A stretch of 28,103 bases of DNA from a virus, in the IMG/VR virus record IMGVR_UViG_3300044630_002647, positions 1 to 28,103 of that record; one strand, written 5' to 3'. A program made the position numbers and the translations under genes. The notes below the pieces were generated by a model. That model saw nothing but the letters and a program-made list of their open reading frames with translations, had not been told where the DNA came from and searched no databases. Shown here one piece after another: positions 218 to 15,251 of this stretch (its first letter is position 1; every line of letters begins with the position of its first letter).

Positions 218-2269
218 ATGGCAACAGTAAATAAAGATTTTAAGATTAAGAGTGGTCTCGTCGTTGAAGGTACAACAGGTACAATCAACGGACTTGACAT
301 TCTTACAAAGAAGCAAGCAGACCAAGACTACATTGTTAGTCTTATTGGTGGAACAGCAACATCTGCTAACGAAGCAAACAAGGTAGTAAAGCGTGATGCT
401 AACGGTAACTTTGCTGCAGGCATAATTACGGCAAATATTACTGGTGATGTAACAGGTGATGTAACTGGTCAAGTATCAGATATTTCAAACCACGATACAG
501 ATGATCTTGCTGAAGGTTCAAGACTATATTTCACAAACCAAAGAGCACTTGATGCAACTAACACTGCATACGATGCAGCAGGAACTGCAGCAACAGAAGC
601 AGGACTTGTAGCAGGAGATCTTTCAGATCACGAAGCACTAACTTCTGGAGTACACGGAGTAACTGGTTCAGTAGTTGGAACAACTGATACACAAGATCTT
701 TCAAACAAGAAGATTATTGACACTCTTTACTTTTCAGATAGCGTAACGGTTGCTAATGAAGCAGAAATTGAAGTACAGGCTGGAAGCCATCTTTTCAACA
801 TTCAGGCTAACCAGGGAGACCTAAATCTACGCACAACAGCAACAGATGCAAGCGTTTATGTAATCTCAGATGATGCAGACATCGTTCTTGCAGCAAATGG
901 TGGTTCATACATTGGAACAGTTGCAGCAGAAAATGAAATTGCAACTAAGGGCTACGCAAACAGTATAGCAACTGGCGCTGAAAATGCACTTGAAGACCAC
1001 GAATTAGCAACATCTGGAATTCATGGTGTAACTGGCAATGTTGTTGGTACAACAGATACACAGACACTTTCTAACAAGACACTTGGTAGCGACCTTGCTG
1101 CTGGTGGATATAAGGTATCTGGTCTTTTGGATCCTTCAGCAAACCAGGATGCAGCAACAAAGTCATATGTTGATACAGCAGTATCAAACCTAATTGGTGC
1201 AGCACCTGAACTTCTTGACACTCTTAACGAGTTGGCAGAAGCAATTGGTGATGACGAAGACTTTATTGGAACAGTAACAGCATCAATTGGTGAGAAGGTA
1301 GCAAAGGCTGGCGACAGCATGTCTGGCAACCTTGACTTTGGCGGAACAAACAAGGTAACAAGCATTGCAGCACCAACAAACTCAGGCGATGCAGCAAACA
1401 AGAACTATGTTGATACAGAGATTTCAACTCTTGATACAGCAGCACAGGGTTATGCAGATGATGCAGAGACAGCAGCAAACTCTTACACAGATGGAAGAGA
1501 AACAGCAATCACAACTGCTTACCAGTCATACGCTGACACAGCAGAAGCAGATGCAAAGACTTATGCAGATGGTTTAGCAGTAAACTATGATGCATCAGGT
1601 TCTGCTTCAGCAGCACAGACAGCAGCAGAAGGTTTTGCTACTGGTCTTAACAATACAACTAATGATCGTATTGATGACCTTACAACATCTGATATTCCAG
1701 AAGGTTCAAACCTTTACTTTACAGATTACGCTGCAAAGGTTTCAGCAGTTGATCTTTTGACTAATGCTCAACAGAACAATATTGAAATTACTTGGACTAA
1801 CCAGGGTGGCCTTGTTATTACCGCAGAAAACGGTGTAGCAGACTCCACAACTACTGATCTTGTAGAAGGAACAAACCTTTACTTCACAGATGAAAGAGCA
1901 GTAGATGCTCTTGAAGCAGTAGTTCCAAACTTCACAGCAGTTGAGGTAAACTCAGTTGCTAAGCAGGTTGCTTCAACCATGTCAGCAGCATCTGCAGGTG
2001 CTCATGTAGGACACGCATTTGCTAAAGCAGATTATCGTTCAGCAGAGTTCCTTGTAAAGGTTGCATACGGCACAGAAACTGAAATCTCAAAGGTACTTTT
2101 GACACTTGATTCTTCAGACAACATTGCAATGACAGAATATGGAATTGTTGGAACAAATGGACCAGCGATGTCAGTTACAGCAAATGTTGACGGAGCAAAT
2201 GTACAACTTCTAGTAACAACCACAAACAATAACTCAACAGTTACTGTTGTCGGAACATTGCTTGCATAA
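218..2269 (+). CDS. Tail fibre protein, 683 aa, modular repeats
   Basis: Probable long tail fibre or virion appendage. The start follows a good Shine-Dalgarno (AAGGAGAT, 203-210). Residues 1-16 (MATVNKDFKIKSGLVV) nearly match the start of the next protein and may be a virion-anchoring peptide. Internal repeats: an LYFT module, D-x-x-EG-[ST]-x-LYFT, at about 97-111, 492-506 and 547-561; a HGVTG/GTTDTQ/LSNK module at 136-165 and 259-288; a [AN][TN]K-x-YVDT module at 313-320 and 393-400; and an APELLDTLNELAEAIGDD module at about 327-346, which recurs in the 610-aa fibre downstream. Residues 400-480 are Ala/Thr/Asp-rich and likely helical. The C-terminal ~100 residues resemble the terminal domain seen in fibre-like proteins of T4-like cyanophages and in the truncated gene upstream (from memory of the family). 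It could equally be a baseplate-attached fibre or a capsid fibre. Confidence 0.82.
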   Translation: MATVNKDFKIKSGLVVEGTTGTINGLDILTKKQADQDYIVSLIGGTATSANEANKVVKRDANGNFAAGIITANITGDVTGDVTGQVSDISNHDTDDLAEGSRLYFTNQRALDATNTAYDAAGTAATEAGLVAGDLSDHEALTSGVHGVTGSVVGTTDTQDLSNKKIIDTLYFSDSVTVANEAEIEVQAGSHLFNIQANQGDLNLRTTATDASVYVISDDADIVLAANGGSYIGTVAAENEIATKGYANSIATGAENALEDHELATSGIHGVTGNVVGTTDTQTLSNKTLGSDLAAGGYKVSGLLDPSANQDAATKSYVDTAVSNLIGAAPELLDTLNELAEAIGDDEDFIGTVTASIGEKVAKAGDSMSGNLDFGGTNKVTSIAAPTNSGDAANKNYVDTEISTLDTAAQGYADDAETAANSYTDGRETAITTAYQSYADTAEADAKTYADGLAVNYDASGSASAAQTAAEGFATGLNNTTNDRIDDLTTSDIPEGSNLYFTDYAAKVSAVDLLTNAQQNNIEITWTNQGGLVITAENGVADSTTTDLVEGTNLYFTDERAVDALEAVVPNFTAVEVNSVAKQVASTMSAASAGAHVGHAFAKADYRSAEFLVKVAYGTETEISKVLLTLDSSDNIAMTEYGIVGTNGPAMSVTANVDGANVQLLVTTTNNNSTVTVVGTLLA

Positions 2270-2304
2270 TAAAAAATAAAAATAGTTGGAAGAAGGAGTA
2301 GTAA

Positions 2305-2754
2305 ATGACAACAGTCGATAAAGACTTTAAAGTCAAGAATGGGTTAGTCGTTGCAAACGGCGGTACATTCGGAGATGCAGTAACAGTAGGAGCACCAACT
2401 CTTAATGCACATGCAGCAACTAAGGAGTATGTCGATAGTCGTTCAATGGCCGTAGGCTCAACTGCTCCTTCTTCACCAACTAATGGAACAATGTGGTTAG
2501 ACACTCTAACAAACAGAGTTAATTTCTATTACGATGGAACTTGGTATACCCAAGCAACTATCGATGATACAAATAATCTTCCACAGCATATTCACGATAC
2601 CGCAATTGATGGAACTGGTTTCATAGTATCTCAGTTCTATGAAGGTGGATCATTCAACAGCCCATTGGGTGTAGGTTTGGATGCAGGTGGCCCCTCTACA
2701 ACAGAGTGGACAGTTGTATTCGATGGCGGTAGTGTAGTAGATAACTTCAATTAA
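2305..2754 (+). CDS. Short fibre-like virion protein, 149 aa
   Basis: Residues 1-16 (MTTVDKDFKVKNGLVV) are almost the same as the N-terminus of the 683-aa fibre, so the two probably share an attachment site on the virion. An ATKEYVD module follows at about 39-44. Next comes a SSPTNGTMWLDT...FYYDGTW stretch (about 56-80), a motif widespread in phage fibres that ends in an aromatic/DGTW strand. The remainder (81-149) is Gly/Asp-rich with IHDTAIDGTGF and contains no recognisable receptor-binding domain. The Shine-Dalgarno GAAGGAG lies at 2292-2298. At 149 residues it is much shorter than its neighbours. It could be a minor fibre, an adaptor for the fibre, or a shortened duplicate of the 683-aa gene; the sequence does not decide. 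Confidence 0.65.
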   Translation: MTTVDKDFKVKNGLVVANGGTFGDAVTVGAPTLNAHAATKEYVDSRSMAVGSTAPSSPTNGTMWLDTLTNRVNFYYDGTWYTQATIDDTNNLPQHIHDTAIDGTGFIVSQFYEGGSFNSPLGVGLDAGGPSTTEWTVVFDGGSVVDNFN

Positions 2755-2811
2755 AACAGGGGTTATAATAAGATAAGTTAATGGGCAGCCCCCATAAGGA
2801 GAAATAAAAAT

Positions 2812-4644
2812 ATGGCAACAAGAATGCAACAGCGCAGAGGAACTGCAGCACAATGGACGGCTGCAAACCCAGTATTGGCAGCAGGTGAAATCGGTTTTGA
2901 AACTGATACAAGTAAGTTTAAGATGGGTAACGGATCATCAGCATGGTCTGCTCTAACATATTTTGCTAACGCAGCAGAACTAGCAGCGATCATTGATGGA
3001 GCCCCAGCACTTCTAAATACACTTGATGAGTTAGCCTTAGCAATGGGGGATGACCCACAATTTTTAGCAACACTAAACACAAATATTGGGCTAAAGGCTC
3101 CAATTAACAATCCTACATTTACAGGAACTGTTAGCGGAGTCACAAAGTCAATGGTTGGTCTTGGAAATGTTGATAACACAACAGATGCTCTTAAGCCAGT
3201 TTCAACAGCAACACAAACAGAATTAGACCTTAAGGCTCCTTTAGCCTCCCCAGCACTTACTGGTGTACCAACAGCACCAACAGCAACTGGAACTACAAAT
3301 ACAACTCAGATTGCTACAACAGCATTTGTTCAAGAAAAAATAAATGGCTTAGTAGATGGTGCTCCAGAAATGCTTAACACACTAAATGAGTTAGCAGCAG
3401 CACTTGCAGATAATGAAAACTTTGCTTCAGAAATAACAAACACTCTTGCACTAAAAGCATCACTAATAAATCTAAGTGATCACAACAGTTCTACAGAAAA
3501 TGTACACGGAATTGCAGACACTTCTCTTCTTGTAACAGATGCTGGTCTTGCACAGGCTTTGACAGACTCAATTGAAGCACACAATGATCTTACAACAAAC
3601 GTACATGGAATTGCAGACACTGCAGAACTTGCTACAGCAGCAGATGTTGCAGCAGCAGGAACAGCGGCTTCTACAGCACTTGGACTGCACTCTGATGCAA
3701 CAACAAGCGTACACGGAATTGCAGATACAAGTCTTCTTGTGACAACAGCAGATCTTGAGACTGCACTAGAAGGAGCAGCAGTTGATCAATCAACTCTTGC
3801 AGGAACTGGTATAGACTGGAACTCAGTTGATAACCGATTTGATATTGATGCAACAATTGCAACAAAAACTTATGCAGACCAAGCAGAAGCAGATGCTATT
3901 ACAGCAGCAGCAGCAGCAGCAGAAGTCCTAGCAAATGCAGCAGTTGTAACAGCAGGAACAAATGCAGACACAAAGATTTCAACTGCAGTAGCAGCACTTA
4001 CAAAGTCTTCAGTAGGACTTGCAAATGTTGACAATACTTCAGATGCATCAAAGCCAGTTTCAACAGCACAGGCTACAGCAATTGCAACTGCTAAGTCAGA
4101 AGCAATCGCAGATGCAACATCACAAGTAAATGCGCTACTATCAGGAGCCCCAGCAGCACTTAATACACTTGATGAACTTGCAGCAGCACTTGGTGATGAC
4201 GCAAACTTTGCATCAACAGTCACAACAAACCTTGCAGCAAAAGCACCAATCAATGCCCCAACATTTACAGGTCTTGTAACAGTTGCAGCATCTGGTGTAG
4301 CATTTACAGACGGAACACAGACAAAGGAAGGAACTCCTTCACGGACTCCTATTGTTCAAAAGTCAGCAAACTATACATTATCAACACTTACTCACAGAGA
4401 TTCTCTAATTGAAGTTTCTGCTGCAGGAATAATTACAGTTCCAACAGATGCAACACTAAACTTCCCAATTGGAACATCAATTGATATCCTTCAAACAGGT
4501 ACAGGAGAAGTTAAGGTTGATCCAGTATCAGTAGCAGTAACAATTAATGCAACACCAGGACGAACACTACGCACACAATGGTCATCTGCAACTCTCTTTA
4601 AGAGAGCAGCAAATACCTGGGTATTGTTCGGAGATCTTAAGTAA
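2812..4644 (+). CDS. Tail fibre with Mtd-like N-terminal domain, 610 aa
   Basis: The N-terminus (about 5-50; RMQQRRGTAAQW, then GEIGFETDTSKFKMGNG and AWSALTY) is the small repeat domain typical of phage fibres and related to the N-terminal domain of the Bordetella phage major tropism determinant. Three copies of a GAP-x-x-LNTL-[DN]-ELA module lie at about 63-107, 183-216 and 445-487; the first and third continue into a KAPIN-x-PTFTG turn. Two VGL-x-NVDNT repeats (about 114-131 and 400-417) and three HGIADT repeats (232, 265 and 301) make it a chain of small modules, as expected of a trimeric fibre shaft. Residues 511-610 form a beta-rich C-terminal domain (NYTLSTLTHRDSLIEV, then LRTQWSSATLFKR) seen at the tips of many fibres and spikes. 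The start has AAGGAG at 2796-2801. It is a likely receptor-binding or shaft component. Confidence 0.85.
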   Translation: MATRMQQRRGTAAQWTAANPVLAAGEIGFETDTSKFKMGNGSSAWSALTYFANAAELAAIIDGAPALLNTLDELALAMGDDPQFLATLNTNIGLKAPINNPTFTGTVSGVTKSMVGLGNVDNTTDALKPVSTATQTELDLKAPLASPALTGVPTAPTATGTTNTTQIATTAFVQEKINGLVDGAPEMLNTLNELAAALADNENFASEITNTLALKASLINLSDHNSSTENVHGIADTSLLVTDAGLAQALTDSIEAHNDLTTNVHGIADTAELATAADVAAAGTAASTALGLHSDATTSVHGIADTSLLVTTADLETALEGAAVDQSTLAGTGIDWNSVDNRFDIDATIATKTYADQAEADAITAAAAAAEVLANAAVVTAGTNADTKISTAVAALTKSSVGLANVDNTSDASKPVSTAQATAIATAKSEAIADATSQVNALLSGAPAALNTLDELAAALGDDANFASTVTTNLAAKAPINAPTFTGLVTVAASGVAFTDGTQTKEGTPSRTPIVQKSANYTLSTLTHRDSLIEVSAAGIITVPTDATLNFPIGTSIDILQTGTGEVKVDPVSVAVTINATPGRTLRTQWSSATLFKRAANTWVLFGDLK

Positions 4645-4673: not shown

Positions 4674-5627
4674 ATGGCAAATAAAAGAGTAGGTAAAAAG
4701 TCCCAAGCAGCAAATGACTTCTTGGAGCCAAAGCCACCAATTAACGTATCGGCTTCAGATGTTGGTACAAATAGAGCGTTTAATAGCGCTGCAGCATCAG
4801 TTACTTTTACATTGCCAGAAGGTTCTCCACCAGCAACCTCTTACACAGTGTCTGCAACATTTGTTGCAACTGGTGCAGGAGGAGACGGTTCAACTGGAAC
4901 TACTGTAACTCAGGCTGGAGCATCATCTCCAATTGTTGTAGGTGGACTTAAGTCAGCAGCATCTTATACATTTACTGTGACCGCATCAAACTCTTCTGGA
5001 ACATCTGCAGCATCAACATCTTCTTCTGCGCTTACTGTTACATCAGTGCCAAACAAGGTTGGAACAGTAACTGCATCAGTTACAGCAGGGTCACAAAACG
5101 ATACAATTACTTGGTCAGCCCCAGCAAATGGTGGAAAACCAATCACTACTTACAGATGGACATCATCTGACAGCAAAACTGGAACAACAGCGTCTTTGTC
5201 TGCTGCAGTAGCACAAGAAGCAACAACTGCACAGACTTATCAGGTACGGGCAGAAAACGCTAACTTAGCAGGAGAATATTCTAATCCATCTAATAGTGTT
5301 ACAACCCCTCCATTCTTCCCGCCATTTTTCCCATTCTTCCCTTACTTCCCATTCTTCCCGTTCTTCCCACCATTCTTCCCGTTCTTCCCATTCTTCCCGT
5401 TCTTCCCACCGTTCTTCCCGTTCTTCCCATTCTTCCCGTTCTTCCCACCGTTCTTCCCATTCTTCCCATTCTTCCCGTTCTTCCCACCGTTCTTCCCTTA
5501 CTTCCCGTTCTTCCCGTTCTTCCCACCATACTTCCCACCACCACCACCACCACCTGGCGGAGGCGGATGTAGTTGCCAAGCAACATATTGCTGGCAGTGC
5601 CCTTGCAGTTCCAATTGTTGCTGTTAA
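4674..5627 (+). CDS. Fibronectin-III protein with Phe/Pro tandem repeat and Cys-rich tail, 317 aa
   Basis: Four parts are visible. Residues 1-20 are a basic leader without a signal peptide. Residues ~22-210 hold two fibronectin type III-like domains (PPINVSASD...SYTFTVTASNSSGTSAAS, then VTASVTAGSQNDTITWSAP...YQVRAENANLAGEYS). Residues 212-287 are almost pure Phe and Pro with a few Tyr, built from a 13-residue unit, and lead into seven prolines (288-294) and four glycines (295-298). The last 19 residues (299-317) contain eight cysteines, in the order CSC, C, CPC and a terminal CCC. Fibronectin domains are common in exposed virion proteins. The Phe/Pro tract is expected to be extended and very hydrophobic, and the Cys tail could bind metal or crosslink by disulfides. 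Location directly after the fibres suggests a virion surface role. No known family for the C-terminal half is recognised. Confidence 0.8.
   Translation: MANKRVGKKSQAANDFLEPKPPINVSASDVGTNRAFNSAAASVTFTLPEGSPPATSYTVSATFVATGAGGDGSTGTTVTQAGASSPIVVGGLKSAASYTFTVTASNSSGTSAASTSSSALTVTSVPNKVGTVTASVTAGSQNDTITWSAPANGGKPITTYRWTSSDSKTGTTASLSAAVAQEATTAQTYQVRAENANLAGEYSNPSNSVTTPPFFPPFFPFFPYFPFFPFFPPFFPFFPFFPFFPPFFPFFPFFPFFPPFFPFFPFFPFFPPFFPYFPFFPFFPPYFPPPPPPPGGGGCSCQATYCWQCPCSSNCCC
5307..5555 (+). repeat. In-gene tandem repeat coding the Phe/Pro tract (39-bp unit)
   Basis: The sequence is built from TTC/TTT-CCx triplets. Between about 5367 and 5522 four consecutive 39-bp units encode the 13-residue pattern PPFFPFFPFFPFF (the fourth has one Tyr). 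A longer, imperfect unit precedes them and PPYF with poly-proline follows. The strong pyrimidine/purine strand bias and exact frame preservation indicate coding repeats that could expand or contract in 39-bp or 9-bp steps without frameshift. Confidence 0.9.
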
Positions 5628-5703: not shown

Positions 5704-6132
5704 ATGTACGCAGTTCTAGTTAAAAATGATAACGATTCTTATGACGTTATTGCACTTCTCAATCATGAGGATCCGCAGGTAATAGTTGGAATCGATGAGG
5801 CACTTGCTTCAGGAAAACCAGTAGTTGGTATGGATGCCTCTGAACATAAATTAACAGCAACCTATGGTTCTAGTTGGAACGGTACTTCTTTTTCTGGAGG
5901 AAAGCCAAGTAGAGCATCCGAGGCAACACAAGAGCAGTTAGATTCTTTTAATTTATATGCGTTCTTGTGTGATAATGTTTTGGTTGCTAGATATGGTGTT
6001 GGCTTAACATCTCCAAAAGTCCAGATGTTTGAAGCAGCATTAGCAAGCGAAGTAACACTTGTTAAGGTCCCTGAAGATCAGGCTGTAACTGTTGGAGAAA
6101 CCCATAACTGGGATGGCTCAAGATTTATTTAA
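5704..6132 (+). CDS. Unknown protein with two W-[ND]-G-[TS] motifs, 142 aa
   Basis: No family is recognised with certainty. The start is well supported by AAAGGAGA six bases upstream. It has no signal peptide, membrane segment or cysteine-rich region. Two similar aromatic turns stand out: SSWNGTSF at 57-63 and HNWDGSRFI at the C-terminus (135-142). Such W-[DN]-G-x-x-F turns are frequent in small phage fibre-associated proteins, where they form short beta-hairpins. The gene stands between the fibre block and the oxygenase block, with a hairpin and a promoter just upstream and another -10-like element downstream, so it may be a single-gene unit. A fibre-associated or chaperone role is plausible only from position. 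Confidence 0.6.
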   Translation: MYAVLVKNDNDSYDVIALLNHEDPQVIVGIDEALASGKPVVGMDASEHKLTATYGSSWNGTSFSGGKPSRASEATQEQLDSFNLYAFLCDNVLVARYGVGLTSPKVQMFEAALASEVTLVKVPEDQAVTVGETHNWDGSRFI

Positions 6133-6177: not shown

Positions 6178-6885
6178 ATGTATGACGAAAACGCAAATCA
6201 CTGGTTTACAAAAGATAGATCAGAAACAGCAATAAATAGATACCCATCAAAGACTATCGGAAATGACATTTTGGTTGAAAATCCAGCACTAGGAATTAAT
6301 TTATATAGAAATGTGTTTTCAAAAGAAGACTCTGAAAGATATATAAATATTCTTGAGTCAAACTTAGGCGGTAATGGAAAGTATAAATGGTCAGAAGCAA
6401 AGGTAACCAACTCTGATGTTCCAATTAAGAAAGCCAGAGACGCTGTAGACTTTAAATTTAAGCAAGAAAATTTAGGTCCAAGAGACGAACACAATGCTGA
6501 ACTTATTGACCTTCACGAAGAGATTTATCAAAAGTTAAAGTTCTGCGTTGACGATTATGCCAGGTACTGGGGAATCAATGTAGTGTATTATGAAGCATTC
6601 AACTTTGTTAAATACGAAGGAGAAGGAACACACTTTAATATTCACGCAGATCATGGCCCAATGTATAACTGCACAGTATCTGCTGTTGTTTATATCAATG
6701 ATGACTATGAGGGTGGAGAAATTAGGTTTCCAAGAATGGATAACTACACTCATGCTCCAAAGGTAGGAGATATTATTCTTTGTCCGTCTAACTATATTTA
6801 TGAACACGCATCATTACCAATGAAAGAAGGAACAAAGTATTGTGTTGTAGTAATGACAGATATTAATGAACTAGGACACAAGTAG
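6178..6885 (+). CDS. 2-oxoglutarate/Fe(II) oxygenase, prolyl-4-hydroxylase type (copy 1)
   Basis: Predicted cytosolic dioxygenase that uses 2-oxoglutarate, O2 and Fe(II) to hydroxylate a substrate. The iron triad is H156-x-D158 (IHADHG) and distal H210 (YEHAS), with K220 (GTKY) in the position of the 2-oxoglutarate-binding basic residue; lysine here is the P4H-alpha style. NDDYEGGE (175-181 region) is the conserved strand-turn between the His motifs. 235 aa is normal for a single-domain viral or bacterial enzyme. It is closely related to copy 2 (shared DAVDFKFK/DCVDFKFK, EAFNF, YNCTVS). The stop TAG shares its G with the GTG start of the next gene. The substrate is unknown; nearby fibre proteins are candidates. 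Confidence 0.88.
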   Translation: MYDENANHWFTKDRSETAINRYPSKTIGNDILVENPALGINLYRNVFSKEDSERYINILESNLGGNGKYKWSEAKVTNSDVPIKKARDAVDFKFKQENLGPRDEHNAELIDLHEEIYQKLKFCVDDYARYWGINVVYYEAFNFVKYEGEGTHFNIHADHGPMYNCTVSAVVYINDDYEGGEIRFPRMDNYTHAPKVGDIILCPSNYIYEHASLPMKEGTKYCVVVMTDINELGHK

Positions 6886-7652
6886 TGTCTTTAGTTGCAA
6901 TATTTAGATCATTTAGGCCATGGCTAAACAAGGAAAGTATTTCTGTTCCAGTTCCAACACAAAAAGAAATTCCAGAATGGTATAAAGATGCAGACAGATT
7001 TGCAAAAATGCCAAATGGAGAATATTACAAGGCTCCAAAAGAAGTTTGTCCATTTCCAAAAGAAGGAACCACAGATGATTATGGAAAGATACCAACATGG
7101 AAAGCATGTCCAGCAATCATGGATGCATTTTCAACTGGATACGTATTTAAAACTCCCTGCGATTTAACATTTACCAAAAATTCTCATGGAATAATTAATG
7201 TCAAAATCGATGATCCCAAATACAAAGACTTTTGTACACAAAGACCACCAATGCCACAGTTTGAGCATCCCAAAGGTTATTACACACATCACTTTGCATG
7301 GAGTTCAGACTGGGGGCTAGAACTTCCAGAAGGTTACAGCGCATTATTTATGACACCGATGAACAGGTTCGACCTTCCATTTTTAAATACTACGGGAGTA
7401 GTTGATTCAGACAAGGTTCATCTTCTTGGTAGTTTCCCATTTTTTGTTGCAGATGGATGGGAAGGAACACTTCCAGCAGGAACACCATACCTTCAGGTAC
7501 TTCCATTTAAAAGAGAAAACTGGGAACATGAAGTAGACATTTTAGATCAGTCTAAAATTTATGATAAAATGGTTAAGAACATGCAGTTTTATCGCCAGCC
7601 AGATGGCGGGATATATAAAAACAAAGTTTGGTCAAGACGAGAGTACAGATAG
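6885..7652 (+). CDS. DUF6065-like protein, 255 aa, coupled to oxygenase copy 1
   Basis: The GTG start overlaps the preceding TAG (TAGTG), which implies translational coupling to oxygenase copy 1. No catalytic motif is recognised. The middle and C-terminal half (TGYVFKTPCDLTFT at about 84-97; LELPEGYSALFMTPMNRFDLPF at 145-166; GTLPAGTPYLQVLPF at 194-208) can be laid alongside the 236-aa protein at 8345 in the same order. Both resemble the DUF6065 family as I remember it: a beta-rich, cupin-like fold of unknown function. There is no signal peptide. Residues 1-75 (Pro/Lys-rich, with IPEWYKDADRF) are absent from the paralogue. Its pairing with an oxygenase suggests it acts on the same substrate or product, but this is inference. 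Confidence 0.6.
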   Translation: MSLVAIFRSFRPWLNKESISVPVPTQKEIPEWYKDADRFAKMPNGEYYKAPKEVCPFPKEGTTDDYGKIPTWKACPAIMDAFSTGYVFKTPCDLTFTKNSHGIINVKIDDPKYKDFCTQRPPMPQFEHPKGYYTHHFAWSSDWGLELPEGYSALFMTPMNRFDLPFLNTTGVVDSDKVHLLGSFPFFVADGWEGTLPAGTPYLQVLPFKRENWEHEVDILDQSKIYDKMVKNMQFYRQPDGGIYKNKVWSRREYR

Positions 7653-7661
7653 GAATACATA

Positions 7662-8345
7662 ATGCAAAGTTGGACAGAAAAAGAAGTTCTTGGACACGGA
7701 ATTGTGTGCTATAGAAATGTTATTAAAAAAGAGTTTGACGTAATAAATAGATTAGAGAATGCTCTTGGATCTGTTGCTGGATATGGAGAATTATCTGCAG
7801 AAGGAAAAAGATACCACTGGATGCCAGCATATGTTGGCTATCAACAACTTATGCCAGAGTACAGAGACTGCGTTGACTTTAAGTTTAAGAAAACAGACAT
7901 AGAGTTAGACAAAAGCGAAGAGTCTCTAAAACTTCAATCTCTATGGCAAGATTTATATGATGTACAGGCTGCTGCTGTAGAAGATTACAGGAGAGATTAC
8001 AATATTATGCCACTAAAGTATTGGGAAGCATTTAACTTTATTAAATATGGACCAGGACAGCACTTTAAGGAACATCATGATCATGGATACTCTTACAACT
8101 GCACAGTATCTCTCGTCGCCTATGTTAACGATGATTATGAAGGTGGAGAACTGTATTTTAGATTACAAGATTTAAACATTAAGCCAAAGGCTGGAGATCT
8201 TTATATCTTCCCATCTAACTTCATGTATCCTCATCAAGCAATGCCAGTGCACTCTGGAACAAAGTACTCTATTGTAACTATGCTTGATTATAGTAAAAAA
8301 TATCACACACCAGACATGTACGATCCAAAGTGGGACAAAGAATAG
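7662..8345 (+). CDS. 2-oxoglutarate/Fe(II) oxygenase, prolyl-4-hydroxylase type (copy 2)
   Basis: Closest relative of copy 1 in the window, with the same layout. The iron ligands are H138-x-D140 (in EHHDHG) and H191 (PHQAM), with K201 (GTKYS) as the probable 2-oxoglutarate anchor. VNDDYEGGE at 155-163 is the family turn. The shared segments YWEAFNFIKY, DHG and YNCTVS show recent divergence from copy 1. It starts nine bases after the previous stop with only a weak ribosome site (TAGGAA). Its own TAG overlaps a GTG start for a DUF6065 gene, exactly as at copy 1, so the two genes form the second member of a duplicated cassette. Confidence 0.88.
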   Translation: MQSWTEKEVLGHGIVCYRNVIKKEFDVINRLENALGSVAGYGELSAEGKRYHWMPAYVGYQQLMPEYRDCVDFKFKKTDIELDKSEESLKLQSLWQDLYDVQAAAVEDYRRDYNIMPLKYWEAFNFIKYGPGQHFKEHHDHGYSYNCTVSLVAYVNDDYEGGELYFRLQDLNIKPKAGDLYIFPSNFMYPHQAMPVHSGTKYSIVTMLDYSKKYHTPDMYDPKWDKE

Positions 8346-9055
8346 TGATAGATATTTCAGTTGAAAAAATGCAAGGCAATAGTTTTGTAATTGCTCCAAT
8401 GACGATTAAGAGAGAGTGGATGGATTCCACGTCGGATAATCATGCTTACAGATGTTTTCCAGTAACACAGGCAAACGTAGTTGGATGGAGTCTTTCTTGT
8501 TTAGAAGATATTGTTTTTACTTGGGATGGCATAAATGATCAAACTCAAGATCATATTAAAATTATTTCTGCTCCAGAAGGATCTTATAGCGGTAGAGGAC
8601 AATCTTCTGTTAGTCTAAATACTGGCCTAATCTTTAGAACCAATCAAGATGTCAGCATCCTTACAATTAATCCAGTAAATTATTTTAGTGAAGATTTTGA
8701 AACAATGTCTAATTTAATCAGTACATCTTTCTACGACAACCCTCTTCCTTTAGCAATTAAAGCAAGGAAAGCAAACGAACAAATAACTATAAAGGCTGGA
8801 ACTGTTTTAGCAACTATAATTCCAATATCTTTAACCAACTTAAATAATAGTTCTATAGAAATTTTTAATTACAAAGATGAATATGGGCTAAGAACGCAAT
8901 CAAATATTTCATATGGAGAGGCAGCGCAAGTTTTAAACTCTTCTGGACAATGGACAGACTGGTACAGGGATGCCGTCAATGAAAATGGAGAAGTTAGAGG
9001 CAATCACGAAACAAAAACTTTAAAACTCTATGTAAAAGACAATAGTGGTGCATAG
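8345..9055 (+). CDS. DUF6065-family protein, 236 aa, coupled to oxygenase copy 2
   Basis: I place the start at the GTG overlapping the upstream TAG (TAGTG), matching the junctions at 6885 and 9055, rather than at the in-frame GTG 15 bases earlier. Recognisable family features are AYRCFPVTQANVVGW (34-48), DIVFTWDG (55-62), LNTGLIFRTNQDVSILTINPVN (91-112), an acidic/Ser segment, then AGTVLATIIPI (151-161) and a C-terminal WTDWYRDAVNENGEVRG (203-219). This order matches DUF6065, a beta-rich protein of unknown function. The homologous gene at 6885 is more divergent and carries an extra N-terminal region. The TAG stop again overlaps the next GTG. Confidence 0.68.
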   Translation: MIDISVEKMQGNSFVIAPMTIKREWMDSTSDNHAYRCFPVTQANVVGWSLSCLEDIVFTWDGINDQTQDHIKIISAPEGSYSGRGQSSVSLNTGLIFRTNQDVSILTINPVNYFSEDFETMSNLISTSFYDNPLPLAIKARKANEQITIKAGTVLATIIPISLTNLNNSSIEIFNYKDEYGLRTQSNISYGEAAQVLNSSGQWTDWYRDAVNENGEVRGNHETKTLKLYVKDNSGA

Positions 9056-9510
9056 TGAACGAGTTAAACACAGTACATGATGTCATGGTCAATGAATATA
9101 TTAATAATTCAAAAGAAGGAAAAGTCAATCACTACATGATAACTGTATCAAGAGACGGAGAGTCTCCAGTAAGATCAATAATTTCTTTTGATAATTTAGA
9201 GCAAGCATTAGAAGGTTATGAGATGTATCAGGATGCTGGTTTTGCAAAAGACTATCTTACCGTTTCTCTTTACCAACCTTCTGGAAACACTCTTACAAAA
9301 GTTTTGAAAAGAAATCATGCTGGAGATCCATCTTTTGTTAGACAAAATTATATAGATACAGTTGAGGCATTGCACTCAGTAAAGGACAAACTGAGCAAAG
9401 AAGACTATGAAGAAATGTGTATTAAAATTGTAACCTCATTTGCAAAAGACAACTGGAGATTTAGTGCAGATAGATTCCTAAAACAATTAGAAATAGACAA
9501 GGAGTTATAG
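9055..9510 (+). CDS. Unknown acidic/charged protein, 151 aa
   Basis: GTG start overlapping the previous stop (TAGTG), the third such junction in a row, so it belongs to the 6178-9510 operon. No family is recognised. Residues 24-75 look like an alpha/beta sandwich (HYMITVSRDGESPVRSIISF, then EQALEGYEMYQDAGF, then YLTVSLYQP), a shape common in small phage proteins. Residues 95-151 are helical and charged. There are no cysteine clusters, signal peptide or membrane segment. It is the last gene before the promoter at 9525, and a role with the cassette is possible. Confidence 0.6.
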   Translation: MNELNTVHDVMVNEYINNSKEGKVNHYMITVSRDGESPVRSIISFDNLEQALEGYEMYQDAGFAKDYLTVSLYQPSGNTLTKVLKRNHAGDPSFVRQNYIDTVEALHSVKDKLSKEDYEEMCIKIVTSFAKDNWRFSADRFLKQLEIDKEL

Positions 9511-9524
9511 GTCTATAAACCCTA

Positions 9525-9533
9525 TGATATAAT
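9525..9533 (+). promoter_or_regulatory. Extended -10 promoter (TGaTATAAT), apparently leaderless
   Basis: A perfect TGnTATAAT ends six bases before the ATG at 9540, so the transcript should begin at or next to the start codon. No Shine-Dalgarno is present between the upstream stop and the ATG. It would drive the five-oxygenase run 9540-13120. Confidence 0.7.
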
Positions 9534-9539
9534 CAAATT

Positions 9540-10214
9540 ATGGATAAATCAGAAGCATCTGTTGTAATTAGAAAGCCATCAATGACACCTTCAGGTTGGT
9601 TTGGCAATAGTAAAGATATGATTGTTGAGTTAGAAAATTTTATGACTCAAGAAGAGATTGAATTTTTAGAAAAGGCTGCAAAGTCTTTAACTATTTGGGA
9701 TGTAACAGAAAGCCATGTTAATGAGAATGGAACAATTGTCTACGACTCAAATTATTGGAAAGACAGAGTTGCAACATATCCTAGTTTAAATAAAAATAAT
9801 CCAGCAATAGCCCCAGTTGTTTCTGGCTTATTTGAAAGATTAAAGCCAATTGTTGAAGAATTTTATAAAGTAAAAGTTATACCTACTGGACCAACGATTG
9901 TTAGATGGTTGCCAGGACAATTACAAAATCCTCACGCAGACAAAGAACTGCATGAGGGTCCAGATGCTGGACTTCCAAACGATTTTCCAAACTATGATCT
10001 TTCAAGCCTTTTCTATTTAAATGAGGACTATGAGGGTGGAGAACTATACTTCCCTTTGCAAGATGTTAAGTTTAAACCTAAAAAAGGAGCAGCGTATTTT
10101 TTCCCAGGGGATATGAATTATGTTCATGGCGTAACAGAAATCAAGAGTGGAATAAGATACACATGCCCATTCTTTTGGGAAATTACAGAGCACACAGGAG
10201 ACAGAAAGCCATGA
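9540..10214 (+). CDS. 2-oxoglutarate/Fe(II) oxygenase (copy 3)
   Basis: A single-domain dioxygenase of 224 aa. The iron triad is H132-x-D134 (NPHADKE) and H196 (YVHGV), and R206 (GIRYT) is the 2-oxoglutarate-binding residue. NEDYEGGEL at 161-169 is the conserved turn between the strands. Arginine instead of lysine at the cosubstrate site sets it apart from copies 1 and 2 and suggests a different subfamily. The start is the ATG six bases after a perfect extended -10 element, with no ribosome site, so translation is probably leaderless. The end overlaps the next gene as ATGA. Substrate unknown. Confidence 0.88.
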   Translation: MDKSEASVVIRKPSMTPSGWFGNSKDMIVELENFMTQEEIEFLEKAAKSLTIWDVTESHVNENGTIVYDSNYWKDRVATYPSLNKNNPAIAPVVSGLFERLKPIVEEFYKVKVIPTGPTIVRWLPGQLQNPHADKELHEGPDAGLPNDFPNYDLSSLFYLNEDYEGGELYFPLQDVKFKPKKGAAYFFPGDMNYVHGVTEIKSGIRYTCPFFWEITEHTGDRKP

Positions 10215-11068
10215 CAGAGATAAAACATATTGAAATATATCCTAAAATCTTTGTATATAAAAACCTTTTTAAGGATATATCTAAAACAACGTCTCTTTTA
10301 AAAGAAGAGGATGAAGAAGGTTTGTTTAGCCCATGGACAAAGTGGGCTCAGGTTGGACACTATCTTAATCCTTTATTTAAGGATCACCCACACACCATGA
10401 CAATGGAGTACATGGAAAAAGAAATAGAAGCAAATACTGAAAAACAAAAAGATCAAAAGTCTGCAATTTTAGAACTTTTTAATAACTTTCATCTGGCAAC
10501 AAAAGACTATATAAATAAAAATAATGTAGAGTTTGATGAAACAGCATTTGTAAAAGATCGTGACGGAGTAAGTCATAAACTGTGGACAACTCATGGACCA
10601 TCAATAGCAAGATATAGAACAGATATAGAAAGTTCTATTGGCTTAGTCTATCACTCAGACTATGTAAGAGAGCCTATAAAGACTCCTGGAGAAAAGTTTG
10701 CAATAACCGCCTTAACATACTTTAACGATGATTATGAAGGCGGAGAAATTGATTTTGTTGTTGATGGAGAGGCATACATGTATAAGCCAGAGGCTGGAGA
10801 CGTTTTAGTTTTTCCAGCAGGCCATCCAGAAATTTTGACTAAGAACGGAAAGGTATACCTACATGGGGTAATGATTCCAAGAAAACAAAACAAGTACATT
10901 TCTAGAATGTACTGGATGAAGTACGAGGATGGATCCGATGAATGGTACGAAAAGGAAAATGAATTTGGAAAGACACTTTGGAAAGAAATGCACACAGACA
11001 TTGTGAAAAAGTTTTGGGAAAATATTACTCCAAAGATAAGTACAGAAAAAGAAAAGAGAATAAAATGA
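10211..11068 (+). CDS. 2-oxoglutarate/Fe(II) oxygenase (copy 4), 285 aa
   Basis: I choose the ATG in the ATGA overlap with copy 3; an upstream in-frame ATG at 10163 would add 16 residues lying wholly inside copy 3. Iron ligands are H148-x-D150 (YHSDY) and H218 (YLHGV), with K228 (NKYIS) or R232 near the expected cosubstrate position. NDDYEGGEI is at 172-180. It is longer than its siblings, with an extra charged helical N-terminal region (about 28-105) and a Lys/Glu-rich tail after 240. It ends in another ATGA overlap. The extra N-terminal part could recognise a substrate. Confidence 0.85.
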   Translation: MTEIKHIEIYPKIFVYKNLFKDISKTTSLLKEEDEEGLFSPWTKWAQVGHYLNPLFKDHPHTMTMEYMEKEIEANTEKQKDQKSAILELFNNFHLATKDYINKNNVEFDETAFVKDRDGVSHKLWTTHGPSIARYRTDIESSIGLVYHSDYVREPIKTPGEKFAITALTYFNDDYEGGEIDFVVDGEAYMYKPEAGDVLVFPAGHPEILTKNGKVYLHGVMIPRKQNKYISRMYWMKYEDGSDEWYEKENEFGKTLWKEMHTDIVKKFWENITPKISTEKEKRIK

Positions 11069-11811
11069 ACCTAAACAATAAAAAAAGAATCACAAAAGAT
11101 ATTGTTGTTTATGAAAACTTTATTGAAAAAGATGATTGTAAAAAAATGATTATGGCACTTGATGCACAAGCAGATAGTGGTAAAATTTCATGGATGCCAA
11201 TTTCTTTTTACGAATCGTACTCTTCTGTATTACCACAAGACAATGATCAGGAAATTTTAGATGCTGGGTTATCTCCAACGATCTTTTCAGATATTGAAAA
11301 AATGATGCCAGAAGCAATAGCATCAGTGCACGATCTTGACCCAAAAACCATTTCTAAGATTGGATACCATACTCAGAAGTGGGAGCCAGGAGCATATGCA
11401 AGAATTCATTCCGATAATACTGATCACGAGGGAAACTCTGGTGCGTTTACAAGAAGCAGATATGCAGGATTCTTATACTTAAATGACAACTTTGAGGGTG
11501 GATTATTAAGGTTTCCAGATCAAAACATAGAGATTAAGCCACAGGTTGGAATGCTTGCCGTATTTGACGGGGGATTTAATAATATGCACGAAGTATCATT
11601 AATAGAAAGTGGAGTAAGATACACTATTGGATCTTTTTGGGACGATAGAGAAGAGTCTGACTACCCACAAGAGTTAAGAGATGCTTGGGCAGAAGAAATG
11701 CGAGAAACTAGAGCCAAGCAAGAAATTGAAAGAGCAGAATGGCAAGAGTTGCTTAAAGAAGGATATAAGTTAGACATAAATAATAATAAGTATAAGGTAG
11801 GGGATAACTAA
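11065..11811 (+). CDS. 2-oxoglutarate/Fe(II) oxygenase (copy 5), 248 aa
   Basis: Start taken at the ATGA overlap with copy 4, not at the in-frame ATG 87 bases upstream, which would duplicate copy 4 coding sequence in another frame. Iron ligands are H115-x-D117 (IHSDNTDHEG) and H175 (MHEV); R185 (VRYT) is the cosubstrate residue. The usual NDDYEGGE turn is altered to NDNFEGGLL (140-148). A 50-residue charged C-terminal helix (about 195-245; EELRDAWAEEMRET-like) follows the catalytic core and is not in copies 1 to 3. The gene is in the five-oxygenase run and ends two bases before the next ATG. Confidence 0.85.
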   Translation: MNLNNKKRITKDIVVYENFIEKDDCKKMIMALDAQADSGKISWMPISFYESYSSVLPQDNDQEILDAGLSPTIFSDIEKMMPEAIASVHDLDPKTISKIGYHTQKWEPGAYARIHSDNTDHEGNSGAFTRSRYAGFLYLNDNFEGGLLRFPDQNIEIKPQVGMLAVFDGGFNNMHEVSLIESGVRYTIGSFWDDREESDYPQELRDAWAEEMRETRAKQEIERAEWQELLKEGYKLDINNNKYKVGDN

Positions 11812-11812
11812 C

Positions 11813-12478
11813 ATGGCAATTTTTTTAGAAAAAGAATTTACTGATGCTAACTATGAAATAGAGGTACTTCATGACGATATCTTGGCTATCAAAAACTTTA
11901 TATCAGATGAAGAGTTAGATACAATTTGGGAAATAATTAATAATGCTACAGAGGCAGACTGGGGCATAGAGTATACAAAAAATCTTGCTAGATTTTGTAT
12001 GGAAAAGTTTGGGAGAGATGACGTAGATAACCTTGTTGCTGAGGGAAAGTTTGAAATTACACAAGGCTGGCAAGATAAAAATTTAAATGTTGTCCATGAA
12101 CCAATTACAGTTACTTTACAAAGAAGACTTGGAAACCTTATACAATTATCAGATCCATCACTAGAACTTGCTGGATTTGGAACATTGCAAAGAATGCAAG
12201 ATGGGGTAGAGTTGAAGTCTCATACAGATCAGCATACTGACCCTTCTATACGATATGCTGCTATTTTGTATATTAACGATGACTACAAAGATGGAACTTT
12301 GTTTTTTGAAAATAAGCCAGGTTCTGATTTAAGACCAGCACCAAAGACTTTGCTTATTTTTCCAGGGACAGAAGAATACGAGCACGGAGTAAGACCTGTA
12401 GGAAAAGATAGCCCAATAAGATATGTAACTGTTGGGTTTATCAAGGTTAAAGGCTGGTACGAAAAAAATAAATACTAA
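11813..12478 (+). CDS. 2-oxoglutarate/Fe(II) oxygenase (copy 6), 221 aa
   Basis: Iron ligands H137-x-D139 (SHTDQHTD) and H191 (YEHGV) with R203 (IRYVT) as cosubstrate anchor, so the catalytic set is complete. The turn reads NDDYKDGTL (155-163), the most degenerate in the cluster. The N-terminal ~60 residues include a DDILAIKNFISDEEL helix typical of the family entry segment (FISDEE). One base separates the upstream TAA from this ATG, so ribosomes probably reinitiate. The most divergent copies (5 and 6) sit side by side in the middle of the run. Confidence 0.85.
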   Translation: MAIFLEKEFTDANYEIEVLHDDILAIKNFISDEELDTIWEIINNATEADWGIEYTKNLARFCMEKFGRDDVDNLVAEGKFEITQGWQDKNLNVVHEPITVTLQRRLGNLIQLSDPSLELAGFGTLQRMQDGVELKSHTDQHTDPSIRYAAILYINDDYKDGTLFFENKPGSDLRPAPKTLLIFPGTEEYEHGVRPVGKDSPIRYVTVGFIKVKGWYEKNKY

Positions 12479-12490
12479 GGAGATTGAAAA

Positions 12491-13120
12491 ATGAAAAGAG
12501 AAATACTTGAAGAAAAGGTTTACTATTACACAGACGTAATTGAAGATCCAAAGAAACTTGTTGACGCAATCGAGAATGACAATAAGGATCCTTGGGGTGA
12601 ATGGATGGCATGTAGCGGTGAAGCCTATGTGTATGGAACAGACAAAAGCATTAAATTAAATGATAGTTCTGATGAAAGCAATAACTACATATATTCAACA
12701 CTACAAAAAGCATTTGACGATGTGGCAAGAGATTATGCAAAGGCTCAAGGCATAGAGCAAGAGCCAAAGTTATTTCCAGTTTATCCTATTAAAAAGTATA
12801 TGCCTGGGACTCATATGGGAGCACATTTTGATCAACAAGAAGGAGACGAAAGACTTAAGGTTTCTTTTGTTATGTACCTAAACGATGACTATGAAGGAGG
12901 AGAGATATCATTTACAATTGCTTCTCCAGGAGGAATTCTAAAAGATTCAAGACCACCAGCAGATTTTGATGATGCTATAAAAGGAGTAACTTATACTTTT
13001 GCAGTAAAGCCAAAAGCAGGAAGTGTTATTGTATTTCCTCCATCACCCCCATATCATCACACTGCTCACTTAGTTAAAAGTGGTGAAAAGATAATGATTC
13101 CACAACACTGGATTCATTAA
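12491..13120 (+). CDS. 2-oxoglutarate/Fe(II) oxygenase (copy 7), 209 aa
   Basis: Iron ligands H112-x-D114 (AHFDQQ) and distal H193 (TAHLV), with K200 (GEK) in the cosubstrate position. NDDYEGGEI is at 131-139. Between the turn and the distal His there is an insertion (about 142-170; ASPGGILKDSRPPADFDD) absent from the others, which may lid the active site. A clear ribosome site (AAGGAG, 12477-12482, overlapping the previous stop) precedes the start. It is the last gene of the run; two small inverted repeats and the reductase promoter follow. Confidence 0.87.
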   Translation: MKREILEEKVYYYTDVIEDPKKLVDAIENDNKDPWGEWMACSGEAYVYGTDKSIKLNDSSDESNNYIYSTLQKAFDDVARDYAKAQGIEQEPKLFPVYPIKKYMPGTHMGAHFDQQEGDERLKVSFVMYLNDDYEGGEISFTIASPGGILKDSRPPADFDDAIKGVTYTFAVKPKAGSVIVFPPSPPYHHTAHLVKSGEKIMIPQHWIH

Positions 13121-13217: not shown

Positions 13218-15251
13218 ATGTCAGATTTTTTTAGTTTTAAACTTCCAGAGGACTTTGTAGAAAAGTATAAAGCACAAGAGAGCCCGTTTGGTTTTAAAGA
13301 TGCAGCAGAAAACTCACTTGGAGAAATTACTTTTATTCGTACATATTCTCGAATGAAGGAAGATGGAACTAAGGAGCGTTGGCATGAAGTTTGTCGTCGT
13401 GTAATCGAGGGCATGTATTCAGTTCAGAAGAATCATGCTAAAGAAAACCGTTTGCCATGGAATGACTACAAGGCTCAGAAGTCAGCACAAGAAGCATTCC
13501 AAAGAATGTTTGAATTGAAGTGGACACCACCAGGACGAGGTATGTGGGCATTTGGAACTCCTATGACTATGGAGAAGAAGAACTCAGCAGCACTACAGAA
13601 CTGTGCCATGGTCTCCACAAAGGACCTTGACAAGAATGATCCAGGAGCACTATTTGCTTGGGTGATGGATGCACTGATGCTTGGCATTGGTGTAGGGTTT
13701 GACACAGTGGGACAGGATAAGAATTTCTCAATCTATACCCCAACAGAACCAGAACAGGTGTTCGAAATTCCAGACACTCGTGAAGGCTGGGTAGAGTCAG
13801 TCAGACTTCTTATCAATTCATACCTTAGAGCAAACCAGAGCATTCAGAAGTTTAACTACGATTTGATCAGACCTCTTGGAGCACCTATCAAGGGCTTTGG
13901 AGGCGTTGCATCAGGACCTGCACCTCTTATCAAGTTGCACGACCAGATAGACCGTGTAATCGGCTCTAGAGGCGGAGAAACACTAGACTCTCGTGCCATC
14001 GTAGATCTTGTAAACCTTATTGGTACCTGCGTGGTATCAGGCAACGTAAGACGATCAGCAACACTTGCTTTGGGTAATGCAGGGGATGAAACATTTATGA
14101 ACCTAAAGAACTCAGAGATGTTCCCAGAACGTAACTCATTTGATCCAGAAAATCCAGGTTGGGCTTGGATGTCTAATAATTCTATTTCAGCAGAAGTAGG
14201 AACAAAGTACGAAGACTATGTAGACTTAATTACTGAAAACGGAGAACCAGGTTTTATCTGGCTTGATGTTGCTCGTAATTATGGACGACTAAAGGATGCG
14301 CCAGACGGTAAGGATTATCGTGTGATGGGATTTAACCCATGTGCGGAGCAGCCATTGGAATCATACGAACTATGTACACTTGTAGAAGTGCACTTGAATC
14401 GTCATGAATCTAAGGAAGACTTCCTGCGTACCCTTAAGTTTGCATACCTCTATGGAAAGACTGTAACACTTGTTCCAACACATTGGCCACAAACAAACGG
14501 TATCATGCAACGTAATCGTCGTATTGGTACATCACTTACTGGTATCGCATCCTTTGCAGATCAGAAGGGTTTGCCTATTGTTCGTGAGTGGATGGATGAA
14601 GGATACAACAAGATTCGTCACTATGACCACCAGTATTCAGAATGGCTTTGTGTTCGTGAATCAATTCGTGTAACAACAGTTAAGCCATCAGGATCAGTTT
14701 CAATTCTTTCTGGTGCAACTCCTGGAGTTCACTGGGGACCTGGAGGAAACTTCTTCCTTCGTGCAGTTCGATTTGGAAACACAGATCCAATGATGCACTT
14801 GTTCAAAGCAGCGGGGTACACAATTGAAGACGACGTAGTATCAGCAAACACATCAGTCGTTTACTTCCCAATCAAGTCAGGTCATCCAAGATCTGAAAAG
14901 GATGTAACACTATTTGAAAAGATTGCCCTTGCTGCAACTGCTCAAAAGTACTGGTCTGATAATGGTGTTTCTGTAACTCTTTCATTTGACAAGGAAACAG
15001 AGTCAAAGCATGTTGTTCCAGCGCTGCATATGTACGAGGGACAATTAAAGGCAGTTTCGTTCCTACCAATGGGAAATCACACATATCCGCAACAGCCATA
15101 TACTCAGATTACTGAAGAGCAGTATGAGTCATATATTGGCAAGTTAAAGCACATTGATTTTTCTGCTATCTATGACGGAGCAGAAAATCTTGAGGCTCAA
15201 GGAGAAATGTACTGCACCACTGACTACTGTGAAATTAAAATAAATAAGTAG
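13218..15251 (+). CDS. nrdJ: Adenosylcobalamin-dependent ribonucleotide reductase (class II)
   Basis: Reduces ribonucleotides to deoxyribonucleotides for phage DNA synthesis, with a cobalamin-generated thiyl radical. Key residues match the single-chain Lactobacillus leichmannii-type enzyme: C129 (QNCAMVS) as one of the substrate-reducing pair, C375 in NPCAEQ as the radical cysteine with E377, C386 (ELCTL) as the other reducing cysteine, and a C-terminal redox pair C666/C671 (YCTTDYC). The C375-to-C386 and C666-to-C671 spacings equal those of the Lactobacillus enzyme (408/419 and 731/736). 677 aa is a little shorter than that ~739-aa enzyme. It probably takes cobalamin from the host. It has its own promoter and contains many CGT/CGA arginine codons, unlike the AGA-dominated oxygenases. 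Confidence 0.93.
   Translation: MSDFFSFKLPEDFVEKYKAQESPFGFKDAAENSLGEITFIRTYSRMKEDGTKERWHEVCRRVIEGMYSVQKNHAKENRLPWNDYKAQKSAQEAFQRMFELKWTPPGRGMWAFGTPMTMEKKNSAALQNCAMVSTKDLDKNDPGALFAWVMDALMLGIGVGFDTVGQDKNFSIYTPTEPEQVFEIPDTREGWVESVRLLINSYLRANQSIQKFNYDLIRPLGAPIKGFGGVASGPAPLIKLHDQIDRVIGSRGGETLDSRAIVDLVNLIGTCVVSGNVRRSATLALGNAGDETFMNLKNSEMFPERNSFDPENPGWAWMSNNSISAEVGTKYEDYVDLITENGEPGFIWLDVARNYGRLKDAPDGKDYRVMGFNPCAEQPLESYELCTLVEVHLNRHESKEDFLRTLKFAYLYGKTVTLVPTHWPQTNGIMQRNRRIGTSLTGIASFADQKGLPIVREWMDEGYNKIRHYDHQYSEWLCVRESIRVTTVKPSGSVSILSGATPGVHWGPGGNFFLRAVRFGNTDPMMHLFKAAGYTIEDDVVSANTSVVYFPIKSGHPRSEKDVTLFEKIALAATAQKYWSDNGVSVTLSFDKETESKHVVPALHMYEGQLKAVSFLPMGNHTYPQQPYTQITEEQYESYIGKLKHIDFSAIYDGAENLEAQGEMYCTTDYCEIKINK

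Follow-up and report, generated by a model that had tools for sequence, protein, structure and literature searches.

Seven 2-oxoglutarate/Fe(II) oxygenases beside a phenylalanine/proline-repeat protein in a phage tail module: a probable protein-hydroxylation cassette

2-Oxoglutarate/Fe(II) oxygenases occur widely as auxiliary genes of aquatic phages, with a role so far guessed at, DNA repair and nitrogen sensing being among the suggestions. Cyanophages carry up to five such genes each (Sullivan et al., PMC3037559). What prolyl hydroxylase does for viruses has been described as cryptic (PMC9301287). Viral proteins are reported to contain hydroxyproline, and the viral enzyme to have peptide substrates (Eriksson 1999, as cited in PMC9301287). 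The phages of Ca. Nanopelagicales, which are freshwater actinophages, have a variable island that contains genes for tail fibres and collagen-like proteins (PMC10202952). The present analysis concerns a 28,103-bp virus fragment from IMG/VR (record IMGVR_UViG_3300044630_002647, positions 1 to 28,103), the whole of which is referred to as the window, and in which seven oxygenases of this superfamily, copies 1 to 7 (c1 to c7), lie just downstream of an FN3-like protein with a Phe/Pro repeat (Table 1).

The seven oxygenases probably constitute a dedicated protein-hydroxylation cassette for the Phe/Pro repeat of this upstream protein (4674-5627) and for further tail proteins bearing the same repeat, here termed FFP. 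Residues 212-288 of the protein comprise 43 F, 31 P and 3 Y, with no other residue among the 77 (FFPFFPPFFP...), and the proline codons within the repeat vary synonymously (CCA, CCG, CCT), indicating that the repeat is a maintained protein sequence. The FFPFFPPFFP pattern is nearly confined to these phages, occurring three times in 84,980 bacterial and archaeal genomes; one occurrence belongs to this phage module (L428), and the other two are without oxygenases and look like chance. When all loci are screened for low-complexity proteins, the relatives whose sequence covers the site have one of this kind upstream of the block. Collagen-like Gly-X-Y repeats were also considered as substrate, and none is present in the block loci screened.

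The enzymes themselves are intact, diverse and under selection. An earlier note on this DNA, made from the sequence alone, had described seven intact oxygenases within 7 kb, and all seven open reading frames (ORFs) stand as placed, tightly packed on one strand. Its picture of seven in a row holds only in part: the seven do fit into 7 kb, but three genes are interleaved, leaving only copies 3-7 strictly consecutive. Six copies exceed the PF13640 cut-off, with copy 4 falling below it and being recognised through PHROG_61. The iron triad (H, D, H) is complete in all seven, as that note had claimed, and the H, D, H and K/R positions are invariant, bar alignment gaps, across IMG/VR orthologues (n=87-167 per copy; with the triad, c1 154, c2 166, c3 167, c4 95, c5 130, c6 111, c7 87). 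The assignment of the cosubstrate residue also agrees, being K in copies 1, 2 and 7 and R in 3, 5 and 6, with both candidates conserved in copy 4. Of the extra domains proposed, the C-terminal helix of copy 5 and the insertion of copy 7 are borne out, but the N-terminal domain of copy 4 is not; this copy most likely starts at 10211 without a clear extra N-terminal domain, its additional element being a C-terminal helix pair.

The median ratio of nonsynonymous to synonymous substitution rates (dN/dS) is 0.05-0.15 across copies (c1 0.052, c2 0.063, c3 0.060, c5 0.101, c6 0.111, c7 0.124), a sign of strong purifying selection which, together with the invariant active sites, supports the view that the copies are functional and none is dead. 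Pairwise identity among the seven is 20-43%, and a tree built from 68 sequences recovers c1-c7 as one clade each, with support of 75-100, all cyanophage sequences falling outside these seven. The seven orthogroups predate the divergence of these phages and are old, separately maintained enzymes, given that each has its own clade, invariant active sites and low dN/dS. Simple gene dosage, already doubted in the earlier note, is ruled out by the seven distinct orthogroups.

Linkage between repeat and enzymes was assessed by searching IMG/VR for the DNA of FFPFFPPFFP alone, blind to the oxygenases. Among the matches listed, an oxygenase lies within 3 kb downstream of the repeat in 76 of the 81 loci with at least 3 kb of downstream flank, against 1 of 57 loci with 3 kb upstream, a contrast with a Fisher p of about 1e-31; the background rate, taken from 80 loci fetched via the capsid protein, is about 0.05 oxygenases per 3 kb. 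In a controlled comparison, oxygenases were counted from the FN3 repeat gene to the ribonucleotide reductase gene in 42 dereplicated loci, giving a mean of 6.57 for the 30 FFP-type loci and 0.08 for the 12 with other repeats, mostly FTPF-type (Spearman 0.82). All records compared are fragments, and most loci come from IMG/VR assemblies, possibly sharing ancestry beyond dereplication. Pairing with one repeat type is near-obligate, and the two also switch jointly. In a tree of the reductase, the gene that also anchors the counts, repeat type and block states are interleaved with 9-10 switches, and the block goes with the repeat in 6/6 independent pairs (5/6 in some pairings) and against it in 0, with a median p of 0.03. 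Resting on six pairs, this test gives the fairest picture of the association and barely reaches significance. The clearest example is L168, which, with its reductase 97% and portal 95% identical to those of the window, has no oxygenase in 53.8 kb and carries (F[TV]PF[AS])n repeats.

Enzyme content also tracks the repeat motif over 70 loci with 7.5 kb flank. PPYFPPYF repeats are accompanied by c2 only (4/4 loci) and PYFPYFPYF repeats by c1 and c2 (2/2 loci), c1 occurring where the repeat has isolated FP[FY] prolines. Phe-Phe-containing repeats (44 loci) are accompanied by 5-8 oxygenases including c2 and c3, and F-T/S/V-P-F repeats by none of the seven orthologues (0/20 loci). At L322, with FFAPPG repeats, c2, c3, c4-, c5- and c7-like copies are present, and c1 and c6 are absent. 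The oxygenases had been suggested to serve different substrates, which is probably incorrect; the evidence favours a single type of substrate common to them all, the upstream Phe/Pro-repeat protein, with different enzymes for different positions. That protein, the key partner, had been missed in the earlier note.

Under the proposed mechanism, the enzymes would act post-translationally with Fe(II), O2 and 2-oxoglutarate, hydroxylating residues of the repeat, most likely prolines. The motif comparison suggests that c2 would read Pro-Pro steps, c1 the isolated prolines in FP[FY], and c3 onward the Phe-Phe-containing repeats, assignments that are a prediction rather than a result because the small classes comprise few, related loci. 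The product would be a heavily hydroxylated repeat, less greasy and stiff, displayed on the virion and probably serving host attachment; an adhesin or fibre tip is suggested by where the gene lies, within the tail module. Left unmodified, a 77-residue Phe/Pro stretch would be very insoluble; sister phages lacking the enzymes encode Ser/Thr at alternate repeat positions, which would supply hydroxyls directly. We infer from these patterns that the repeat is the substrate, proline the residue, the protein a virion component and attachment its role. Tentatively, and with rather less confidence than in the cassette itself, the scheme may be extended to an assembly line in which each of 5-12 oxygenases reads its own step of the repeat code, yielding a polyhydroxylated polymer that perhaps includes hydroxy-Phe, with the Ser/Thr repeats of the sister phages giving a similar surface.

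A different explanation is that the cassette and the repeat gene merely co-travel in an exchangeable tail/host-range module, the real target being another tail protein, a sugar, a lipid or a host surface component. The tail region is indeed exchanged as a block, just a few hundred bases separate the repeat gene from the oxygenases, and the cassette site may hold other genes, namely glycosyltransferases in the Streptomyces phage Blueeyedbeauty and HIPKTAG sulfotransferase-like genes in L168 and L366, indicating a general decoration locus. Co-travel nevertheless seems unlikely, as the pairing persists where neighbourhood is broken and enzyme content follows the repeat motif. The single mismatch of the pairs test, L256, belongs to a 35-kb contig with the whole block about 7 kb upstream of the repeat gene and directly behind a second, different FFP gene; in G043 the block has moved, again beside an FFP gene, with the old repeat gene still of FFP type. 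Second FFP genes are found away from the block at other tail-module sites in block genomes (G004, G027, G031, G035, G038, G040), the pattern having no match in the block-less records tested. Simple neighbourhood accounts for neither the L256 arrangement nor these second genes, and the nearest solved relatives of the enzymes act on proteins. The genes with the LYFLHIPKTAG signature replace oxygenases at L168:4259-5047 and L366:2716-3507, both with FTPF-type repeats, and stand beside oxygenases at L173:5893-7414.

Several observations weigh against the cassette as a dedicated hydroxylation system for the repeat. As the repeat gene adjoins the block, one recombination event can swap both, and linkage explains part of the co-switching. 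FFP genes also occur on contigs without an oxygenase (L216/G033, 38 kb; L275/G044, 53 kb), both fragments, and some relatives hold several scattered oxygenases without an FFP repeat (eight in G002), pointing to the existence of other substrates. FTPF loci, assigned by the loose class 'F[TSVA]PF', hold 1-2 non-orthologous oxygenases within 7.5 kb, so that it is the orthologous block, not every oxygenase, that is absent there. The motif rule rests on few and close loci, the six PPYF loci probably falling in two lineages. Finally, hydroxylation of the repeat is what we infer, no hydroxylated residue having been seen.

Fold comparison places the enzymes among protein hydroxylases. The double-stranded beta-helix was modelled for copy 4, the most divergent, and assigned to the other six via sequence homology. 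The AlphaFold2 model of copy 4 from a 38-sequence alignment reaches a predicted local distance difference test score (pLDDT) of 90.7, compared with 34 without an alignment. Its first Foldseek match is the viral collagen prolyl hydroxylase vCPH of PBCV-1 (PDB 5c5t), and a second aligner gives PHD2 with Z of about 15 over 180-190 aligned residues. In profile searches against PDB, copy 4 matches the Bacillus anthracis prolyl 4-hydroxylase (3itq/5hv0) at 4.9e-10, copies 3/5 match human prolyl 3-hydroxylase 1 (P3H1) at 4e-9, and copies 1/2 match the lysyl hydroxylase LH3 at 3e-4. With profile and fold lists headed by prolyl 4-hydroxylase (P4H), P3H1, LH3 and EGLN1, the nearest relatives are hydroxylases of peptidyl proline or lysine, which fits the earlier idea of virion modification.

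Modification of phage DNA, whether TET/JBP-like or as AlkB-like repair, is very improbable against this background. DNA repair has been suggested for cyanophage 2-oxoglutarate oxygenases (Weigele 2007, as cited in PMC3037559), and copy 3 gives a faint Tet_JBP (PF12851) match, but at E 0.018 and 14.7 bits this match is far under the cut-off of 34.9 and does not place copy 3 in TET/JBP; Tet-like entries in the PDB profile search reach E 0.18 or worse, whereas prolyl hydroxylases reach 1e-9. The genes moreover lie in a tail module, with no methyltransferase or DNA glucosyltransferase among the window genes in the PHROG annotation. An auxiliary metabolic role, in which the enzymes would shift the 2-oxoglutarate and succinate of the infected cell, was proposed for marine cyanophages (PMC3037559) and repeated for a lake phage (PMC10611076). 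For the cassette it is hardly credible, since seven orthogroups, each its own clade under purifying selection, would be needless for burning 2-oxoglutarate, and the linkage to one repeat type would be left unexplained.

The block is widespread yet unstudied, its carriers being uncultured phages of aquatic origin. A search of IMG/VR with copy 4 recovered 80 loci, those with enough flank holding the ordered set c1-c7, and about 100 IMG/VR contigs carry the block wholly or partly. The earlier note had regarded the block as unusual, which is right insofar as 50,697 GenBank phage records, queried with five oxygenase and partner proteins, yielded no such cassette, characterised or otherwise, and just cyanophage-type matches below 40% identity; it is not, however, a single-genome oddity. 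Homologues of the FN3 repeat protein and of DUF6065 were likewise not found in those records. Some loci reach 10 or 12 oxygenases (L075, L076, L084, L085; L086). At L086:679-11232, twelve oxygenases occupy about 10.5 kb, including c4 and c7 paralogues and one lineage near no window copy, and a short-chain-dehydrogenase-like gene (MKTAIVTGAS) lies among the oxygenases there, likewise in L171 and L443. The contig L428 (JAFMJX010000128.1), 5.3 kb long and binned under Chitinophagaceae in GTDB, represents a piece of this phage group, encoding the FFP repeat protein, c1, c2, DUF6065 and c3; its place in that bin is probably mis-binning, or a hint to the host.

Relatives of the repeat protein differ in their other domains. 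A Hint/intein/hedgehog-like autoprocessing domain (CxxxxTLI...GD...HN) ends many FN3-repeat proteins, replacing the Cys-rich tail seen in the window (L075:2748-4127, L084, L262, L273, L342, L353, L397, L406, L415). The C-terminal signature in some of them reads 'CVEENTLIDTPNGQ...HNK', and such ends may mean that the repeat is cleaved or ligated. In second-site tail-module proteins, PASTA-like domains bear the FFP repeat (L438:2932-3693, L439:2858-3916), which indicates attachment of the repeat to several different heads.

Gene order in the window runs from tail-fibre-like genes through the repeat protein, the oxygenase block and ribonucleotide reductase to a long ORF, portal, head protease and major capsid protein (Table 1). 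The order of the tail-fibre-like genes upstream of the cassette is kept in L171, L172, L173 and L443/L444. Within the block, the ATG of copy 4 overlaps the TGA of copy 3 (10211-10214) and the ATG of copy 5 overlaps the copy 4 stop (11065-11068), the block thereby reading like one operon. The two interleaved phrog_7084/DUF6065 copies are mutually 20% identical, with ends (PAGT..) that look beta-rich, and genes of this family persist next to repeat proteins in phages without the oxygenase block; a profile search found no PDB relative for the family and a literature search no paper on it. The 1,236-aa ORF 15277-18987 between reductase and portal has no PHROG match and is LamG-like in our own reading; its place is conserved and its sequence variable in relatives (39-68% identity).

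Table 1. Features of the oxygenase locus in the window, with the evidence for each.
Feature	Coordinates	Strand	Evidence
Three tail-fibre-like genes (218-2269, 2305-2754, 2812-4644)	218..4644	+	PHROG tail fibre matches
FN3-like repeat protein, Gly/Cys-rich C-terminus, proposed substrate	4674..5627	+	Sequence; linkage, repeat-type and independent-switch tests
Small ORF separating repeat protein and copy 1	5704..6132	+	29% match near second FFP gene of G027
Oxygenase copy 1 (c1), Lys type, 43% identity with c2	6178..6885	+	PF13640 1.1e-9
phrog_7084 protein, interleaved, start overlaps c1 stop	6885..7652	+	phrog_7084 7.2e-33
Oxygenase copy 2 (c2), Lys type	7662..8345	+	PF13640 6.9e-16
DUF6065 / phrog_7084 protein, interleaved	8330..9055	+	PF19541 4.6e-25; phrog_7084 1.4e-7
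Interleaved ORF, no family match (Pfam, PHROG)	9055..9510	+	
Oxygenase copy 3 (c3), Arg type	9540..10214	+	PF13640 1.8e-8
Oxygenase copy 4 (c4), most divergent, C-terminal helix pair	10211..11068	+	PHROG_61 2.9e-10; AlphaFold2 model
Oxygenase copy 5 (c5), Arg type, C-terminal helical extension	11065..11811	+	PF13640 1.5e-8
Oxygenase copy 6 (c6), Arg type	11813..12478	+	PF13640 1.7e-9
Oxygenase copy 7 (c7), Lys type, ~25-residue core insertion	12491..13120	+	PF13640 1.2e-10
Ribonucleotide reductase, conserved downstream border of block	13218..15251	+	phrog_367 2.2e-143

The cassette offers a concrete candidate substrate for phage oxygenases of this superfamily, along with an evolutionary control in the form of block-less sister phages with FTPF repeats, and enzyme-by-enzyme predictions follow from the motif rule. 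Should the proposed hydroxylation prove true, bacterial viruses would have their own equivalent of collagen-type hydroxylation, built on a new repeat, and work on protein materials might draw on the cassette for sequence-specific hydroxylases.

Among known systems, the T4-like cyanophages share the superfamily and PHROGs (PHROG_61, PHROG_2297, PHROG_81) with the window copies, but their oxygenases are 24-40% identical over part of the protein, scattered, never shown to have a given function, and without a homologue of the FN3 repeat protein. S-SCSM1 and S-RIM50 hold up to seven oxygenases each, scattered and with at most three close together among the cyanophages examined, the three of S-SCSM1 lying beside a short tail fibre gene; the annotation of Synechococcus phage S-SSM5 likewise groups several related genes. 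The Ca. Nanopelagicales phages resemble the window in placing repeat proteins in a variable tail region, though the text describing them mentions neither an oxygenase nor an FFP repeat (PMC10202952). The Stanwilliamsviridae (Streptomyces phages, among them Blueeyedbeauty and Yaboi) show the same reductase - portal - protease - capsid order with a portal 46-48% identical, and the portal identity and shared module make an actinobacterial host likely; Blueeyedbeauty has no oxygenase, its two glycosyltransferases occupying the corresponding site upstream of the reductase. Bacterial P4H (B. anthracis 3itq/5hv0, Pseudomonas P4H/PiuC), EGLN1/PHD2, P3H1 and LH3 share the triad and give the profile and fold matches, but are mostly single enzymes with other protein substrates, and none of these matches shows a clustered set beside one repeat protein. 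The vCPH of PBCV-1 (Paramecium bursaria Chlorella virus 1) is, like the cassette, virus-encoded and of the same fold. To our knowledge, that system comprises one enzyme. It belongs to an algal virus and to other proline-rich repeats, whereas the cassette described here belongs to a bacteriophage and combines 5-12 enzymes with a Phe/Pro repeat.

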